Assembly (NCBI RefSeq): GCF_000701465.1
Contig: NZ_KL370783.1
Span: forward strand, 102,602 to 166,601
Length of the DNA stretch: 64,000 nt
Direction: 5' to 3'
Source of the DNA: Paraoerskovia marina DSM 21750
GTDB taxonomy: Bacteria; Actinomycetota; Actinomycetes; Actinomycetales; Cellulomonadaceae
Part shown: positions 48,794 to 64,000 of the stretch, piece by piece
How the letters are laid out: the number at the start of each line of letters is the position of its first letter
How positions within the stretch are numbered: position 1 is the stretch's first letter
Translations under genes and position numbers: made by a program
Notes under the pieces: generated by a model
What the model saw: only the letters and a program-made list of their open reading frames with translations
Told to the model about the DNA's origin: nothing
Databases searched by the model: none

Positions 48794-49321
48794 TCAGCGC
48801 GGCCGGCCGACGCGGATCGCGAACCGCATCATCGCCACCACGAACGCGGCGACGACGAAGACTGCGCCGACCAGGTGGTGGCTGATCTCGAAGCCCTCGT
48901 CCCCCCACACCTGGTACGCGACGAGGACGCCCGCGTACCGGACCATGTTGGCGACGAGGACGATCCCGAGCGCCTCACCGAGGCCGCCGAGCACGGCGCG
49001 GACCGGGAACCGGGCGAGGCCGAGCGTGACCGCACCGAGGACCAGGAGCGGGACGGCGAGGACGACGGTCGAGCACATGAACGTGATCTGCACACCGATG
49101 CTCTGGCCCGTCCCGCCGCCGATGGCGGCGATGTCCCCGATCGCGCGCGAGGTGCCGCCGGTCACCGGACCGGCGACCCACGCGAGCAGGCTCGCCTCTG
49201 CCGCCCGGACGGCTGCGGAGCGTGCCACGAGCAGCACCGCGGCGCCGAGGACCGCCGCTGCGCCGAGCACGCGCGCCGGGTTGCTCACGTGCGCCGGTGC
49301 GGGCAGCGCGGCGGCGGTCAC
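48794..49321 (-). CDS. exosortase/archaeosortase-family membrane protein
   Basis: A 175-residue integral membrane protein with about five helices. The three residues that define exosortases are in place: Cys83 in ITFMCSTVV, Arg128 in NMVRYAGV and His148 or His149 in ISHHLVGAVF, each at the end of a helix near the outer face. Exosortases are transpeptidase-like enzymes that process C-terminal sorting signals such as PEP-CTERM. It is the last gene of a four-gene operon and overlaps the glycosyltransferase by four bases. It is shorter than many exosortases (250-300 residues). The likely substrates are the two proteins encoded upstream in the same operon. Confidence 0.78.
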   Translation of the reverse strand: MTAAALPAPAHVSNPARVLGAAAVLGAAVLLVARSAAVRAAEASLLAWVAGPVTGGTSRAIGDIAAIGGGTGQSIGVQITFMCSTVVLAVPLLVLGAVTLGLARFPVRAVLGGLGEALGIVLVANMVRYAGVLVAYQVWGDEGFEISHHLVGAVFVVAAFVVAMMRFAIRVGRPR

Positions 49322-50799
49322 GCGGCCCGCCAGGCGTCGAGCTCGATCACGTCCGCGTCAGCGCCTCCGGCCCCGGGAAGCGCGGGAGACCTGGCAGTCG
49401 CGCCGGCGGGCTTCACCGCGCGTGCCTGGTCCAGGACAGCGGCCTGCACCCCGGCCCCGACGCGTGCGGTCTTCTCCCAGCCCGAGTGACCGCGCAGCAC
49501 ACGCCCTGCGGCGCGGACGAGCACGGGGTAGGTCGTGTAGGAGTAGAGCCAGTACCCGAACCCGCGGACGACGGCACGCCCGATGCTCGAGTCCGGGTCG
49601 TCCCGGGACCGGTAGACGAACGCCCAGAGCACGAACGGGCCGATGCCGGTGAGCATCGTCAGCGGCACGAGCCACCATGCGGCGGCGAGGAGGGTGGCCG
49701 TCGTGTGCGTGGCCACCGCGCCGGTGACGACGAAGGCGGCGATCACCGGCCAGATCACGACCCCGAGCAGGCCGAGCCACGGGATCGAGAGGAAGTAGAG
49801 GCTCTCGACGACGCCCGCGTTGGTGAATCCGGGCGATGCGACGATCTTCGGCGCGTACGCCGCGCACTGCATCCCGCCCTGGGTCCAGCGCGTGCGCTGG
49901 CGCAGGTACGGGCACATGGCGGGCAGCGCCTCCTGCCGCACGACGGCGTCGTGGACGTAGCGGGTGCGGTACCCGGCGAGCATCGTGTGGATGCCGAGCT
50001 CGTAGTCCTCCAGGAGCGCTCCGTGCCACGGCTCGCCGTACGTCTCGCCGATCGCGTCGAGCGCCACGAGCCGGGTGAACTGACCGTTGCCGCCCATGCC
50101 CGCCGAGGCGGTGCGCAGCCGCAGGGTCTGCATCGCGGCGATCGTGGTGCGGAACTCGATGTCCTGGCTCCGCAGCAGCCACCGGGCGCGGGCGTTGCGG
50201 AGCCAGGCCCGCACACCCGTGCCCGCGTGCATCTTTCGGCCGGTGTTGTTCATCGCGACCGACGCCTGGGCGGCGCCGACCTCGGGGTCGAGGAAGACGT
50301 CCTTTCCGCTCATGTGCTCGAGCGCCCCGGGGACGAGCTCGCCGTCGGCGTCGATCACCCCGACGACGACCCGGTCGTCGGAGACGCCGGAGAGCTCGTC
50401 TCCGGCGGTCGCCCGCCAGGCGTGCAGGGCGTGGTAGGCGGCGTTGAGGGCCGCGCCCTTGCCCTGTCGCGCGTCAGGTCGTCGGCGCTCGACGAGGTGG
50501 ACGCGGGGGTGCGCGGATGCCCACCTCGAGACGATCTGCGGCGTCGCGTCGTCGCTCGCGTCGTCGATCACCCACACGTGCACGGACGGGAAGTCCCGCG
50601 TGAAGCGCGTGAGGGTCTCGTCGATCACGAGCTCCTCGTCGAGGCAGGGCACGAACATGTGCCACTCGAAGAGGTGCGCCAGCCCGCGCCGTGCACGCCG
50701 TCGTCCCAGGAACGGGACGAGGATCAGCGTGACGTACGCGAGGAACATGACCAGCAGGACGAATCCGACGACGTTGACCGTGGTCTCGAGGGTGGACAT
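49318..50799 (-). CDS. membrane glycosyltransferase family 2
   Basis: A 493-residue processive-type GT2 enzyme. It has an N-terminal helix (about 9-29), a cytoplasmic GT-A domain with VWVIDDASDDAT, the metal-binding DAD in VGVIDADGELVP, LLEDYELG and the QRTRW motif, then three or four helices (about 330-440) and a soluble Ala-rich tail. It could build or export a glycan, or glycosylate the surface protein of the same operon. Exosortase systems are often found with polysaccharide genes. It starts nine bases after the 51-residue gene and overlaps the exosortase gene. Confidence 0.85.
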   Translation of the reverse strand: MSTLETTVNVVGFVLLVMFLAYVTLILVPFLGRRRARRGLAHLFEWHMFVPCLDEELVIDETLTRFTRDFPSVHVWVIDDASDDATPQIVSRWASAHPRVHLVERRRPDARQGKGAALNAAYHALHAWRATAGDELSGVSDDRVVVGVIDADGELVPGALEHMSGKDVFLDPEVGAAQASVAMNNTGRKMHAGTGVRAWLRNARARWLLRSQDIEFRTTIAAMQTLRLRTASAGMGGNGQFTRLVALDAIGETYGEPWHGALLEDYELGIHTMLAGYRTRYVHDAVVRQEALPAMCPYLRQRTRWTQGGMQCAAYAPKIVASPGFTNAGVVESLYFLSIPWLGLLGVVIWPVIAAFVVTGAVATHTTATLLAAAWWLVPLTMLTGIGPFVLWAFVYRSRDDPDSSIGRAVVRGFGYWLYSYTTYPVLVRAAGRVLRGHSGWEKTARVGAGVQAAVLDQARAVKPAGATARSPALPGAGGADADVIELDAWRAA

Positions 50800-50808
50800 C
50801 GGTACGTC

Positions 50809-50964
50809 CTACCGTTGACGACGCGCGAGTCGCGCCGAGCGGTAGACGAGAAGCGCGCCGACGGCGAGCAGGACGACGGCGAGGACGACGGCCAGGGAGG
50901 TCGCTCCCGTGGCCGCGAGCGTGCCCGCGGTGGTGCCGGCGGCACCGGCTGCGGTCTTGTACAT
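50809..50964 (-). CDS. 51-residue protein consisting of a sorting-like signal (LAATG, helix, basic tail)
   Basis: Translation of the minus strand from an ATG at 50964 gives 51 residues to a TAG at 50809. Residues 1-15 are small and polar (Ala, Gly, Thr), then LAATG at 16-20, a membrane helix at about 23-41 and a basic tail (RSARLARRQR). This is the plan of a cell-wall sorting signal; LAxTG is the motif known for class E sortases. A strong AGGAGA site lies upstream. It lies 24 bases after the surface protein and nine before the glycosyltransferase, so it belongs to the operon. It may be a substrate, a membrane adaptor or an exosortase cofactor. Confidence 0.65.
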   Translation of the reverse strand: MYKTAAGAAGTTAGTLAATGATSLAVVLAVVLLAVGALLVYRSARLARRQR

Positions 50965-50988
50965 GAGGTCTCCTGATCCGTGTCGCGC

Positions 50989-52551
50989 TCAGACGGTCCG
51001 ACGGCGCAGTGCCGCGGTCCCGAGTCCGACGACGGCAAGGAAGGCGACCGTGGCCGCCCCGACTCCCGCGGTGGCGACCGGGATCGGCCGGGCCACGACG
51101 ATGGTCACGGTCGCGACGTCCGAGGTGCAGTCCCCGACCGTGAGCGTGTAGGTGAACGAGTCCTCTCCGGCGAAGCCGGCGTCCGGCGTGTAGGTCACCA
51201 TGCCGTCCTCGCCGAGCGAGACCGTGCCGTGGGCAGGCTCGTCGCCCAGCTCGACGACGGTCTCCGCGTCGGCAGTCGTGTCGTTCTCGGTCACGACGAC
51301 GTCGGTCGGCTCTCCCTCCGCGGTCGCGGCCTCGTCGTCCCGTGCGACGAGGTCCTCGGGGACGCAGACCGGGACGTCGGGCACGACGATCGGACTCGTC
51401 GTCTCGCAGGCGGCGTCGTCGTAGACCGCGGGCCAGCCGGGATCGATCGTGTAGCTGCGCTGCGGGTTGCCGTCAGTGCCGACGTCGTTGCCGATCGCGA
51501 GCATGAAGTCGAGCCGGTCGACCGACGCTCCCCCGAAGTCGGTCATCGCCCGGCCGTTGACCGTGGCGTTCGAGTTGTCGAAGTCCTTGACGTTCCCGTT
51601 CGCGCTGAACCCCGACGTCTGGGTTCCCAGCGGGTCGCCGTCGACGGTCACACCTCCGACGATCTGCTGCGCGATGACATGGTTGCCGGAGGTGCCGCGG
51701 GACGAGTCCACCTGGCTTCCGTCGCTGAGACCGACGACCAGCCCCATCTCACGGTTGCCCGGATCTCCCGAGGTCCCGTCGAGGTCTCCCATCCCGAACT
51801 CGGCTCCCGCCACGATCGCCGGGTCGAACTCGGCGCTCGCGTACGCGAACCTGCTGAACTGCCGTCCGTTGCGGTCGAACGCCCCGCGAGGCTGAGCACC
51901 GAACGTGGTCAGCCCTTCGTCACCCGACGGCCACTGCGTGCCGGAGTCGGGGTAGACGGAGCCGCGGTTCGAGACCAGCCCGGTGCTGAACCGGATCGTC
52001 TGCGCACCGACCGTGAGCTCCCCGCCGGCTGCCGCGACGTCGTAGAAGTGGATCAGCTCGTCGGCGCGACCCTCGGCCGAGCAGTTCGAGTCCAGCGGGC
52101 CCGTGACGACGTTCGTGAGCGCGCCGTCGCCGATGCCCTCGGGGCCGACCGTCACCTGATAGGTGACGGTGACCGTCTCGCCCGCACCGATCGGCCCGGC
52201 CCACTCCAGCTCGTCGCCGGAGACCTCGGCCGTTCCCGGGCCGCCGACGACGTCGTCCCAGGTGGCGTCGTCGAGCACGCCGGAGAGGTCGTCGGAGAAG
52301 GTGGCCGGGTCGTCGGCCGTGTACGGCTCGTCGCGGGTGTTGGTCAGGCTCACCTCGTAGGTGACGACCTGGCCGGGGGCGATGTCGCCGTCCGCGTCGG
52401 AGACCTTGGTCATCACGAGGTCGGCGTCCGACGTCTCGACAGCGGTCTGGAGGGCGTGGCTGGGTTGCGCCGCGGTGGCGGCTGTCGGGATCGCGAGTGC
52501 GCCGCCGACAAGGACGGCGACGGCAGCGACGGCTGGCGTGTGTCGAGACAT
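50989..52551 (-). CDS. DUF11-type surface protein with a C-terminal sorting-like tail
   Basis: A 520-residue exported protein. Signal peptide about 1-27; a DUF11-like repeat at about 42-135 (SDADGDIAPGQVVTYEVSLT, GPIGAGETVTVTYQVTV); an unassigned middle domain about 140-385 with four or so cysteines; an Ig/cadherin-like repeat about 400-486 (VTENDTTADAET..., GEDSFTYTLTV). It ends with RPIPVATAG at about 488-496, a helix to 515 and RRRTV. There is no LPxTG, so the operon's exosortase is the best candidate to process this tail. It is first in the operon, divergent from the sigma fusion gene. The DUF11 part resembles the LPQTG protein at the window's end. Confidence 0.82.
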   Translation of the reverse strand: MSRHTPAVAAVAVLVGGALAIPTAATAAQPSHALQTAVETSDADLVMTKVSDADGDIAPGQVVTYEVSLTNTRDEPYTADDPATFSDDLSGVLDDATWDDVVGGPGTAEVSGDELEWAGPIGAGETVTVTYQVTVGPEGIGDGALTNVVTGPLDSNCSAEGRADELIHFYDVAAAGGELTVGAQTIRFSTGLVSNRGSVYPDSGTQWPSGDEGLTTFGAQPRGAFDRNGRQFSRFAYASAEFDPAIVAGAEFGMGDLDGTSGDPGNREMGLVVGLSDGSQVDSSRGTSGNHVIAQQIVGGVTVDGDPLGTQTSGFSANGNVKDFDNSNATVNGRAMTDFGGASVDRLDFMLAIGNDVGTDGNPQRSYTIDPGWPAVYDDAACETTSPIVVPDVPVCVPEDLVARDDEAATAEGEPTDVVVTENDTTADAETVVELGDEPAHGTVSLGEDGMVTYTPDAGFAGEDSFTYTLTVGDCTSDVATVTIVVARPIPVATAGVGAATVAFLAVVGLGTAALRRRTV

Positions 52552-52721
52552 GGAGATTCCTCGGCTCTGGTCGGTTCACACGCCAGGCGGCATGCGTGGT
52601 GAGACTCAGAGGACAGGACCATCGGCAGGTCGCGTGATGACGGTTGCGCAGAGTGAGCCATCCCACTCGTTCCTGCCGTCATGATCGGCTCCGGCGGCGG
52701 TCTCAATGGGTGGAGGTACCA

Positions 52722-54413
52722 ATGCCCACGACAGTGCAGGGGTCGCAACACCATGCGGACACCCCGGAAGCGCCCGAGACCGACATCGAGCTGATCAACC
52801 GCACCCGCTCCGGTGACCCCGAGGCGTACGCGGAGCTCTGGGAGCGCCACCACGACGCCGTCCGCGGAGCCGCACGGCGCATCACCCGTGCGTTCGACCC
52901 CGACGACCTGACGCAGGAGGCCTTCTCCCGCACGTTCGCGGCCCTGCAGGACGGCCGCGGACCCCGCACGACGTTCCGGCCGTACCTGTACGCGACCGTC
53001 CGCAACCTCGCGGCGTCCTGGTCGTCGTCGGACTCCGTGTCGGTCGACCCCGAGCAGTTCGAGGCCGTCGGTCCCACCCAGGAGTTCGAGTCGGAGCTCG
53101 TCGACCGGACCGTCACGGCGCGCGCGTTCCGCACGCTTCCCGACGAGTGGCGCACCGTCCTCTGGTATGTCGACGTCGAGGGGATGAGCGCCACCGAGGT
53201 CGCGCCGATCCTCGGGTCGACCCCCAACGCCGTCGCTGCCCTCACCTACCGCGCCCGCGAGGGGCTTCGTCGTGCCTGGATCGACACGCACGCGGAGTCC
53301 ACCAGCGAGGACCCCGAGTGCGTCTGGACGGTCTCGCACCTGTCCGCCTACGTGCGGGACGGACTGTCGCGCCGCAAGCGCAACCGCGTCGAGGACCACC
53401 TCACCACGTGCACCGCGTGCTCGATCCTCGCGGAGCAGCTCGACGAGGTGGCGTCCTCCCTGCGGGCGATCCTCGTCCCGCTGGTCCTCGGCCCCGCGGT
53501 GGTGATCGGGGGCGAGTCCGTCGGACCTGCCGCGATCCTCCCCGCCCAGGCGTCGGGCGTGACCGCCGAGCAGGCGCGCACGGCGGCAGAGGCAGGGCGC
53601 AACGGCTGGCACCACCCGTTCACCACGCACCCCAAGGCCTCCTGGGGTCTGACCGCGTCGATCGTCGCGGTCGCGGTCACGAGCCTCGCGCTCACGACTC
53701 TCGGTGGCGACGCGGCACCGGAGGCCAGTGCCTCCCCGCTCGCCGACCCGCCGACGACGTCCGAGCCGAGCGACCGTCCGACGGACGACCTCGAGCCCGG
53801 GCCGACGAGCGCTCCGGAGGAGAAGAGCACCGAGGACGGGAGTTCGGACGGCGAGGGTACGGACGCGGGCTCTGACGCCCCGGCCGGCGCCACGGCCGAA
53901 CCCGAGGTCGAGGATCCGGCCGACGAGGCGGCGGAGGAATCCGGGGCCGACGCTGTCCGGCGGACGCAGGACGCCGACGACGCACCGACGAGTGCCTCGG
54001 AGGACGACCCCGAGCCCCCGGTGGTCGAGAGCTCGGCGTCGCCGGACGCGTCGACACCCGCCCCGGAGACGGCCACCGAGCCGGACGCGGCCGACCCGAC
54101 CGTCGAGCCGGATCCCGCACCTGCGCCCGACGTCGCCGCACCCGAGCTCCTCCACCCGGACCCCGGCGCCAAGGTCGCGCTCCGCGACGTCGACGGCTCG
54201 GGGACGGCCGACGACCTGCTGGTGTGGATCGCGGGCGACCCCGACCGCGTCGTGGCGATCTCGATCGACGGCGGGGCCGAGAAGCAGCTCGTCGTCACCG
54301 AGGACGCGGTGCCCTACTTCCTGCGCTCGGTCTCAGCCGGAGGGCACACGCTCACCGCGCGCTACCTCGACGGCTCCGGGAGCGTGAGCGTCTCGTTCAC
54401 CGCTGTGCCCTGA
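52722..54413 (+). CDS. one-chain transmembrane ECF sigma factor fused to a zinc anti-sigma domain and an outer domain
   Basis: A 563-residue fusion. Sigma region 2 lies at about 26-95 (DPDDLTQEAFSRTFAAL), region 4 at about 135-187 (GMSATEVAPILGSTPNAVAA). A ZAS-type anti-sigma domain follows with His206, His226, Cys230 and Cys233 (HLTTCTAC). A membrane helix lies at about 308-327, then a 130-residue linker rich in Pro, Asp, Glu, Ser and Ala, and an Ig-like C-terminal domain (about 460-563) that must be outside. ECF proteins with fused membrane extensions are known in actinobacteria. GGAGG precedes the ATG. It faces the surface-protein operon across 170 bases, so it probably controls that operon in response to an envelope signal. 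Confidence 0.85.
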   Translation: MPTTVQGSQHHADTPEAPETDIELINRTRSGDPEAYAELWERHHDAVRGAARRITRAFDPDDLTQEAFSRTFAALQDGRGPRTTFRPYLYATVRNLAASWSSSDSVSVDPEQFEAVGPTQEFESELVDRTVTARAFRTLPDEWRTVLWYVDVEGMSATEVAPILGSTPNAVAALTYRAREGLRRAWIDTHAESTSEDPECVWTVSHLSAYVRDGLSRRKRNRVEDHLTTCTACSILAEQLDEVASSLRAILVPLVLGPAVVIGGESVGPAAILPAQASGVTAEQARTAAEAGRNGWHHPFTTHPKASWGLTASIVAVAVTSLALTTLGGDAAPEASASPLADPPTTSEPSDRPTDDLEPGPTSAPEEKSTEDGSSDGEGTDAGSDAPAGATAEPEVEDPADEAAEESGADAVRRTQDADDAPTSASEDDPEPPVVESSASPDASTPAPETATEPDAADPTVEPDPAPAPDVAAPELLHPDPGAKVALRDVDGSGTADDLLVWIAGDPDRVVAISIDGGAEKQLVVTEDAVPYFLRSVSAGGHTLTARYLDGSGSVSVSFTAVP

Positions 54414-54425
54414 GTCGACCGACCC

Positions 54426-54725
54426 TCAATCGACCAGCGCGTCGACGATCTCTTCCCCCGCGGGCGTCGCGAGGATGTTGCTGACCCGCCCGTCGGTGGG
54501 GTGCGGGAGCCGGGCGACCAGCCCGGACGACTCGAGCCGTTGGACGATCCCGGTGACGGTCGACGGGGTCGAGTCGAGGAGCTCTCCGATCCGATACGCG
54601 GTGAGGACCCCGTGCAGCTTGAGCAGCGCGAGGACCTTGAGCTGCTGGAGCGGCACGTCGACACCGACGAGGGCCTCGAGCCTCCGGTCCGCCACGACGT
54701 CTCCCGTGGAGCCTGCCTCAGACAT
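54426..54725 (-). CDS. small MarR-like winged-helix regulator
   Basis: A 99-residue protein that is little more than one winged helix-turn-helix (LTAYRIGELLDSTPSTVTGI, wing at about 72-86 LPHPTDGRVSNI). Such short MarR-like proteins bind DNA as dimers. It overlaps the preceding HTH gene by eight bases, so the two are made together and may interact. Target unknown; it ends 12 bases from the sigma fusion gene, with no terminator between. Confidence 0.75.
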   Translation of the reverse strand: MSEAGSTGDVVADRRLEALVGVDVPLQQLKVLALLKLHGVLTAYRIGELLDSTPSTVTGIVQRLESSGLVARLPHPTDGRVSNILATPAGEEIVDALVD

Positions 54726-55281
54726 CGTCGCCCCCGACCCTCTTGAGCTCGCGCCGACCGGCGAGGGTCAGGACGTACTCCCGCCCCGTACGCCGCCCGT
54801 CGGCCACCATCTGGCGGACGAAGCCCGCGTTCTCGAGCATCGTCAGGTGCGCGCGGACCGTCGTGACCGGGCCGCCGACGGCGTCGATCAGCACGTCCTT
54901 CTGCACCGGGCCGCTCCGCAGCGTTCGCAGGACACGGGTGCGCAGCTCGGGGCTCTCGGCCGTCGTCACGGGCGGCACGGCCGGAGGGCGCGGCGTCGGG
55001 CCGACGATGGCGTCGATCTCGAGCCGCCCTTTGCGGGTCAGCCGCAGGTCGGCCTCCGCACCCGCACCAGAGGCCGCGACGGCCTCGAGCATGCCCAGCC
55101 CGGCGAGACGAGCGATCGTCGCGCGCACCTCCCCCGACCCTCCGTCGAGCACGCGTTCGGCGGTCGACGGTTTCGCCAGACCACGAAGCCCGACGTAGGC
55201 GAGTATCCGCAGCTCTTGCACGGTCCGGTCCGTGACGATGACGGCGTTGAGGCGCGTGTTCCGCGCAGCGTTGGGGCTCAC
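54718..55281 (-). CDS. protein with two winged-helix domains
   Basis: A 187-residue protein with two DNA-binding-like halves: residues about 18-85 (LRILAYVGLRGLAKPSTAERV, LTRKGRLEID) and about 110-180 (VLRTLRSGPVQKDVLIDAVG, LTMLENAGFVRQ, LTLAGRRELKR). Each ends in the LT..G..E motif seen at the end of many winged helices. I do not recognise a named family. It is encoded just before the MarR-like gene with which it overlaps. Confidence 0.7.
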   Translation of the reverse strand: MSPNAARNTRLNAVIVTDRTVQELRILAYVGLRGLAKPSTAERVLDGGSGEVRATIARLAGLGMLEAVAASGAGAEADLRLTRKGRLEIDAIVGPTPRPPAVPPVTTAESPELRTRVLRTLRSGPVQKDVLIDAVGGPVTTVRAHLTMLENAGFVRQMVADGRRTGREYVLTLAGRRELKRVGGDDV

Positions 55282-62972: not shown

Positions 62973-64000
62973 CTACCTGCTGAACCCGCTCCGGCGACGC
63001 ACCCCGGCGATCATCAGGCCGCCGGCGAGGAGGAACCCGAGGGCGAGTGCCACGAGTCCTGCGAGCTCCGCGCCCGTCTGCGGCAGCGCCGGTGACGGGG
63101 GCGCCGGAGCGGCGGGGGGAGCCAGCGGGAAGCTGACCTCGTCGCAGGGCCATCCGTCCTCGTCGGTGCCGTCGGTGCACTCGCCCGGAGCGGGCGGCGT
63201 GAGGTCACCACAGTCGGGGACGGTCGTGCAGCCCGGTCCGGCCGGCTGGAACGCGACGTTGTCGACGCTCCCGTCCCCGCCGTCGGTCAGCGTCACGGTG
63301 TAGGTCAGCGTGACGGACTCACCGGCCGGGATCGGCCCGGACCAGATGATCTGCGGCTCGACGTACGCGAGATCACCCGCGTCGGGCGAGACCGTCGCGT
63401 CGTCGTTGTAGGTGCCGTCGTCGAGCACCCCGGACAGGTCGTCGACCACGGTGGCCGGCGACTCGTCGGTGTAGTCGGAGCTGCCCGTGTTCGTCGCGAC
63501 GACCGTGTACGTCACCACGTCGCCGATCGAGGCCGGGTCGGGCACGTCGGCCGACTTGTCGATGGTCAGGCCACGGTCACCGACGGGCACCTCGGTGGTG
63601 CAGTCGAGGTCGTCGGGCCCACAGCTTGCCTCGGGAGGACCGGAGACGACGTTGACCAGGTCCCCGTTGCCGGCCGGCGGGTCGTCGACCGTCACCGTGT
63701 AGGAAATCGTCACGACCTGCCCCGGGGCGAGCGGACCCGTCCAGGTCAGCTCGGGCTCGGCGTAGGCGAGGGCTCCGACGTCGACGCCGTCGACCTGCGC
63801 CGTCGCGTCGTCGTTGAACGTCGCGTCGTCGAGCACGTCGGTGAGGTCGTCCGTCACGACCACGGGGGTCTCGTCGGTGTAGGAGAACGTGCCGGTGTTG
63901 GTCACGTCCACCGTGTACCGCACGGTCTGTCCCGGGCCGGCCTCCTCGCCGGCGTCCGAGGTCTTGACGATCTCGAGCGCCCGCACGGGCGTGGTGGTCT
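62973..64000 (-). CDS. DUF11-repeat surface protein with LPQTG anchor, N-terminus beyond the window
   Basis: At least 342 residues; the frame stays open to the right edge, so the gene is cut. Two DUF11-type repeats are visible: one with the GPGQTVRYTVDVTNTGTFSY start and GPLAPGQVVTISYTVTV end, another with VVTYTVVATNTGSSDYTDES and GPIPAGESVTLTYTVTL. A cysteine-containing spacer follows each repeat. The C-terminus has a Pro/Ala stretch, LPQTG, a helix (about 20 residues) and VRRRSGFSR: a standard sortase signal. No sortase gene is in the window. It is related to the surface protein at 50989, which has a different tail. Confidence 0.88.
   Translation of the reverse strand, partial: TTTPVRALEIVKTSDAGEEAGPGQTVRYTVDVTNTGTFSYTDETPVVVTDDLTDVLDDATFNDDATAQVDGVDVGALAYAEPELTWTGPLAPGQVVTISYTVTVDDPPAGNGDLVNVVSGPPEASCGPDDLDCTTEVPVGDRGLTIDKSADVPDPASIGDVVTYTVVATNTGSSDYTDESPATVVDDLSGVLDDGTYNDDATVSPDAGDLAYVEPQIIWSGPIPAGESVTLTYTVTLTDGGDGSVDNVAFQPAGPGCTTVPDCGDLTPPAPGECTDGTDEDGWPCDEVSFPLAPPAAPAPPSPALPQTGAELAGLVALALGFLLAGGLMIAGVRRRSGFSR

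Follow-up and report, generated by a model that had tools for sequence, protein, structure and literature searches.

Known exosortase systems and the Paraoerskovia marina locus

The locus described here is a set of 4 genes in Paraoerskovia marina DSM 21750, located in a stretch of 64,000 nucleotides (contig NZ_KL370783.1, positions 102,602 to 166,601; hereafter the window), which encodes an exosortase, a membrane glycosyltransferase (GT), a small protein here called MY, and an exported surface protein. The nearest known set is the XrtP/CoaP set of NCBIfam (NF012139, NF053846, NF058583, and NF040603/NF053845), next to which the exosortases XrtR and XrtS are also modeled. It shares with the window an exosortase, the same GT family, a small LAxTG-type protein, and a tailed surface protein, all of which occur together in Herbidospora-type loci (L037). 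However, the window has an XrtS-like exosortase, a substrate with DUF7927 and Big_9 domains instead of CoaP, a small protein that falls far short of the model cut-off, and, encoded on the opposite side, a sigma/anti-sigma fusion. The XrtG system of Lactiplantibacillus plantarum (PMC12854382) likewise combines one CTERM protein and one exosortase with glycosyltransferases, but it contains 2 GTs rather than one, no MY protein was described there, and its model, TIGR03110, was absent from the NCBIfam matches of the window exosortase. The PEP-CTERM/EpsH system (PMC1569441) resembles the window in its Cys/Arg/His exosortase, motif-helix-basic tail, exopolysaccharide gene neighbors, and independently made polymer, but belongs to bacteria with an outer membrane and has many substrates (median of 8 per genome), a PEP motif, and sigma-54 control. 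Finally, the LAATG motif of MY resembles the signal of LAxTG proteins handled by class E sortases, one of which is encoded in the genome, but MY has only 51 amino acids and no cleavable signal peptide, and some clades can do without the motif. To our knowledge, it has not been established onto which acceptor bacterial exosortases pass their substrates, and hardly any studies exist of exosortases in Gram-positive bacteria.

When we searched the literature for XrtP/R/S, CoaP, LAXTG with exosortase, or Microbacterium with exosortase, the actinobacterial system was described in none of the papers retrieved, although papers on it could exist elsewhere. The remark in a preliminary description of the window that the set had not been described as a system thus held for the literature searched but not for NCBIfam; the set is not unknown, as XrtP/R/S, the XrtP-associated GT, relatives of the small protein (LAXTG), and CoaP are already modeled there. 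New here are the linkage of MY to the exosortase, the decay of the locus in Microbacterium, the sigma-zinc finger fusion in the unit, the absence from genomes of the same genus, and the single clear exosortase-type tail. In our judgment, the best overall explanation (probability of about 0.7) is an exosortase cassette for a single substrate, mobile or sporadically retained, with MY as partner and an independent polymer GT. Its core consists of the following features:

48794..49321, minus strand: exosortase (XrtS-like), 175 amino acids (NCBIfam match, conserved Cys/Arg/His, AlphaFold2 model)
49318..50799, minus strand: membrane family 2 glycosyltransferase (GT2) of the processive-synthase type, 493 amino acids (NF053846 match and motifs)
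50809..50964, minus strand: MY protein, 51 amino acids (weak NF058583 score; 78 distinct relatives)
50989..52551, minus strand: exported surface protein, 520 amino acids (Pfam DUF7927 and Big_9)
50992..51087, minus strand: C-terminal sorting tail PIPVATAG-helix-RRRTV of the surface protein (aligns with tails beside other exosortases)

The 4 open reading frames, with gaps of 24, 9, and -4 bases, were located at 48794-52551 as first described, and the positions given for the PIPVATAG-helix-RRR tail, the LAATG of the 51-residue protein, Cys83, Arg128, and His148/149 were all correct. The interval was right in its genes but too short in its extent, as the functional unit appears to reach the divergent gene at 52722-54413. 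Homologs keep the 4 genes together: they occur in the same order in Cellulosimicrobium cellulans and as a set in dozens of other actinobacteria. Because of this conserved gene order and content, and because the score of the exosortase exceeds the cut-off of the family signature model, the set is no product of chance. With the model match, the conserved Cys, Arg, and His, and the shared gene neighborhood, none of the outcomes that the preliminary description would have taken as a refutation occurred.

Genetic linkage of the exosortase, MY and the glycosyltransferase

By sequence, the 175-residue protein is an exosortase. It scored 31.6 bits against the exosortase/archaeosortase family model TIGR04178 in NCBIfam (cut-off 23), in agreement with the prediction that an exosortase model would match. 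The nearest NCBIfam model was XrtS (NF033767; 133.8 bits, E = 4.6e-39), the cut-off of which, 145 bits, was not reached, and we therefore call the protein XrtS-like, not XrtS. The score against Pfam Exosortase_EpsH was 22.4, just under the cut-off of 25.7. Cys83, Arg128, and His148 were invariant in a 46-row alignment of relatives, whereas His149, originally counted among the residues placed as in exosortases, was not. Each of the XrtP, XrtS, XrtR, and TIGR04178 models was matched by 46 of the 46 rows. The AlphaFold2 model had a mean predicted local distance difference test score (pLDDT) of 94.1 and 5 long helices; no solved structure was related to it, by sequence or by fold. A direct search identified the exosortase in at least 8 of 200 genomes of the host's taxonomic family, a lower bound because G006 and G011 turned up with the family model. 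It was also noted that one genome encodes 2 different exosortases (L045 and L049), one with MY and a GT, and the other near a gene for a DUF7927 surface protein and an extracytoplasmic function (ECF) sigma gene, without MY.

All linkage counts are based on 80 named loci obtained by a scan with the GT alignment; unlike the alignment, the window GT alone gave no match in a scan of the genome contigs. The usual order in Micrococcales was surface protein, MY, GT, and exosortase, often followed by wecB, and the same parts were rearranged in other actinobacterial orders. In Herbidospora-type loci the surface protein was CoaP, with a CoaP match in L037. The arrangement in the window had an exact counterpart, down to the divergent sigma gene, in C. 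cellulans NBRC 15516 (L043/L071), followed there by acyltransferase genes and wecB.

Of the 80 loci, 70 encoded an exosortase in which all 3 residues (Cys, Arg, and His) were present (one of them, L115, is cut by a contig end). MY was encoded nearby in 69 of these 70 loci compared with 2 of the 10 loci without an intact exosortase (Fisher p = 1.4e-8, a value that is not tree-corrected and is inflated by relatedness). The lack of an exosortase requires at least 5 changes on the GT tree. In Streptomyces, the GT loci without exosortase also had no MY (L125, L131, L136, L147, and L150). The GT and exosortase distances were correlated (r = 0.81; 0 of 1000 permutations).

The clearest pattern was seen in Microbacterium, where 2 loci (L110, L113) contained wecB, MY, GT, exosortase, surface protein, and a protein of 580 or 703 amino acids, in that order. 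In their sisters L111 and L112, which had no other exosortase in the genome, the order was wecB, GT, and a decayed exosortase in which the region of the Cys was deleted and the His was changed to Leu; the genes for MY and the surface protein had disappeared, as had the one that follows, while the GT and wecB were intact. In L126, the exosortase was lost as well. We conclude from this natural knock-out that MY and the substrate depend on an active exosortase and that the polymer enzymes do not; since the GT and wecB outlive all of the other components, their role is independent and polymer-making. Genetic linkage thus shows the exosortase, and not the GT, to have MY as a nearly obligatory partner.

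The MY protein of the window consists of a Met-Tyr start, an N-tail rich in Ala, Gly, and Thr, the LAATG motif, one helix, and a basic C-tail. It did not reach the cut-offs of NF058583 LAXTG_small_WW (29.1 bits, cut-off 65), of which it is a weak relative, or of TIGR01167, the sortase-dependent surface protein model (11.1 bits, cut-off 15.9), which was exceeded by its relatives in L093 (20.5) and L107 (20.3). In total, 78 distinct relatives were collected, and MY is a real gene family. Most were gathered with a pattern that demanded Met-Tyr, but the 8 relatives that came from the gene caller alone also started with Met-Tyr, and only one of the 66 small called genes with this start was outside the family. 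The N-tail of the family is about 25 residues long, a quarter glycine, and nearly uncharged, and the C-tail has a net charge of about +3.7; the N-terminus is therefore predicted to be outside, according to the positive-inside rule. MY is usually encoded directly upstream of the GT gene, often overlapping it. In one case (L050:6614-7315), MY and the exosortase were fused in a single frame of 233 amino acids; the draft genome is incomplete (68%), and the fusion may be genuine or due to an assembly error.

The dominant motif of the family was LAxTG, with LPxTG being rarer. LAATG, the motif of the window's MY, resembles a sortase signal, as the genome of P. marina encodes a class E sortase (230 bits, cut-off 160) and other LAxTG proteins (LAVTG, LAETG, LAKTG). 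The choice between LA and LP suggestively matched the sortase signals of the genome, in a small sample and with a mismatch in Micromonospora. LxxTG was absent from 8 distinct copies, some of which kept only TG, and in Curtobacterium, Gryllotalpicola, and Microbacterium mangrovi it was lost altogether with Met-Tyr kept. The interpretation of MY as a plain LPxTG protein was rejected because of this loss.

The GT scored 531.1 bits against NF053846, named the XrtP-associated glycosyltransferase (cut-off 520). The motifs DD, DADG, GGNGQ, ED, and QR-RW, which are those of processive synthases, were invariant among its relatives, and the solved chains nearest to it included the cellulose synthase BcsA, over the DxD-QRxRW part. 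However, the top-scoring members of NF053846 (693 bits) were found in genomes without any exosortase (G591 and G555, L035 and L036). Membership is therefore no proof of a partnership with an exosortase, and the name of the family over-reaches. In homologous loci wecB usually adjoins the GT gene, which makes a polymer of N-acetylhexosamine (HexNAc) probable and suggests N-acetylmannosamine (ManNAc) or N-acetylglucosamine (GlcNAc) as the sugar.

The surface protein, the divergent sigma gene and the gained or lost block

The surface protein contains a signal peptide, DUF7927 (E = 1.2e-18), an unassigned middle part, Big_9 (E = 3.1e-15), and an exosortase-type tail; its initial designation as DUF11-type could be refined, as DUF7927 in Pfam is a DUF11-like family, here followed by Big_9. 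It did not match the CoaP domain or CoaP_CTERM (NF040603, NF053845). The tails of surface proteins beside other exosortases followed the consensus P-[VIL]-[VAI]-x-P, helix, and RRR. A model built from 18 tails had one strong match in the genome of P. marina (E = 4.6e-8), and the next (E = 0.12) was a different kind of tail; one clear substrate genome-wide agrees with the proposal of an exosortase with a single surface protein of its own. Some relatives have several substrates, since in G011 (G011:C21:66933-78783) an exosortase is encoded near at least 3 proteins that are similar to the Big_9 and tail end of the substrate; the tail of one of them reads PVPMVAGG.

The middle part of the surface protein of the window (residues 149-400) had no relative among the homologous loci compared. 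The sole broad match to the surface protein was an LPxTG giant in a sister species (G044), where residues 14-389 matched with 38% identity in an open frame of 5590 residues that ends in LPRTG. This would fit interchangeable anchors on one kind of ectodomain. Furthermore, the LPQTG C-terminus of a DUF11/DUF7927-type surface protein was encoded at 62973-63998 of the window and beyond (G000:C7:166249-190938), where the open frames that continue the protein have 907 to 4546 residues. At a distance of 10-35 kb, the exosortase substrate has a large set of sortase-anchored relatives.

The neighboring features on the other side of the surface protein gene are as follows:

52552..52721, no strand: divergent intergenic region, presumed promoters in both directions (position only)
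52722..54413, plus strand: Sigma-70/ECF factor fused to zf-HC2, 563 amino acids, probable regulator (Pfam; divergent homolog in L043)
54426..54725, minus strand: MarR-family winged-helix protein (Pfam MarR, 9.6e-13), inside the gained block
54718..55281, minus strand: winged-helix protein, DprA_WH-like (Pfam DprA_WH, 2.9e-7), inside the gained block

The sigma gene encodes Sigma70_r2, zf-HC2 (a finger of the anti-sigma type), and Sigma70_r4_2, followed, upon inspection of the sequence, by what appears to be a single membrane helix and by an extracytoplasmic part. Its divergent homolog at the same place in L043 was 37% identical (E = 1e-90). A scan of 52552-52721 for promoters of the sigma-70 type found no consensus site.

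The block from the exosortase gene to position 55281, which comprises the genes for the exosortase, GT, MY, surface protein, sigma fusion, and 2 winged-helix proteins, was missing from 3 genomes of the same genus. In these, the LysR gene (55334 in the window) was located directly beside the DUF4190-like gene (48161), or with 1 to 2 unrelated small genes in between. The block was either gained in P. marina or lost in the other 3. The 2 winged-helix regulators of the block overlap each other (54426-55281). Elsewhere in the window, a palindrome-like, REP-like repeat, GGTCGAGCCYGTCGAGACC, was present in 6 copies compared with 0.13 expected (7915, 8050, 30577, 30652, 32681, and 32791), and the PVEPVET repeats in a class F sortase of the genome (L165) may be a translation of it.

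Proposed mechanism, alternatives and meaning

In the proposed mechanism, the tail of the surface protein would keep it in the membrane after export. The exosortase, as judged from its family, would cleave the tail near PIPVATAG using Cys83, Arg128, and His148 and pass the protein to an acceptor, and MY, with its N-terminus predicted to be outside, may serve it as acceptor, adaptor, or helper. The GT2 would make a membrane-exported polymer, probably of HexNAc sugars, that is deployed alongside the displayed protein yet made independently, and control of the unit most likely lies with the divergent sigma/anti-sigma fusion. Several observations weigh against the cassette as outlined here. One locus had an intact exosortase without MY nearby (L149), and MY occurred without a local exosortase in L133, the genome of which has an exosortase elsewhere, and in L120, which is on a short contig. 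MY-like proteins of 110-123 amino acids and uncertain kinship were encoded beside the GT in 2 exosortase-free genomes (L051, L054), the wecB gene of P. marina is located elsewhere in the genome, outside this locus, and some homologous loci have no sigma gene beside them.

The tight clustering and the correlated distances of the GT and exosortase could also point to one dedicated pathway of both enzymes, in which the GT adds sugars to the surface protein or synthesizes the glycan to which it is anchored, and the XrtG system joins an exosortase with glycosyltransferases as well (PMC12854382). We regard this as unlikely, and the dedication of glycan attachment or synthesis to the surface protein that was suggested in the preliminary description was not supported, given the processive-synthase motif set, the GT relatives in exosortase-free genomes, and the retention of the GT and wecB after the loss of exosortase, MY, and substrate. 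Small partners of processive GTs are known, for instance in synthases of poly-N-acetylglucosamine (PNAG), and the place of the MY gene, directly upstream of and often overlapping the GT gene, would suit such a subunit. This is very improbable, as MY was absent from the 5 exosortase-free Streptomyces loci, was lost from the decayed Microbacterium loci that kept the GT, and was fused to the exosortase in the one incomplete draft genome; absence from GT-only loci led us to reject MY as a GT subunit.

The layout of motif, helix, and basic tail, together with the co-occurrence with intact exosortases, would also be expected if the exosortase had MY as another substrate and cleaved it at LAATG, in keeping with the original reading of MY as a mini sorting peptide. 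However, we consider this quite unlikely, as MY has no Pro-containing motif like the P-[VIL]-[VAI]-x-P of the neighboring surface proteins; its motif is instead of the class E sortase type, similar to the LAxTG/LPxTG signals that sortase substrates carry in the same genomes, and the copies that lost LxxTG kept Met-Tyr. It is hardly credible that the 175-residue protein is a small membrane protein unrelated to exosortases, in which Cys, Arg, and His occur by coincidence: the Pfam score below the cut-off and the lack of a similar solved structure are outweighed by the TIGR04178 and XrtS matches, the 3 invariant residues, and the 4 exosortase models matched by all members of the alignment. A more specific role for MY, which we put forward as distinctly speculative and improbable, is a 2-step relay, in which the exosortase would join the surface protein to the free Met-Tyr N-terminus of MY, itself held in the membrane, and a class E sortase would then cut MY at LAxTG and move the pair to the cell wall. 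The relay agrees with the invariant Met-Tyr, a linker that is flexible and rich in glycine, the predicted outside position of the N-terminus, the resemblance of the motif to sortase signals, and the near-obligate link to active exosortases; in clades without LxxTG, it would stop after the first step. If true, MY would be an adaptor that links 2 transpeptidases and a genetically encoded exosortase acceptor.

Under the preferred reading as a single-substrate cassette, the locus probably serves to cut one surface protein at its tail and fix it on the cell. It represents a minimal system: a single enzyme with a single substrate, plus a small partner that disappears when the active site of the enzyme decays, accompanied by a GT that, although named after an exosortase, has an independent life.

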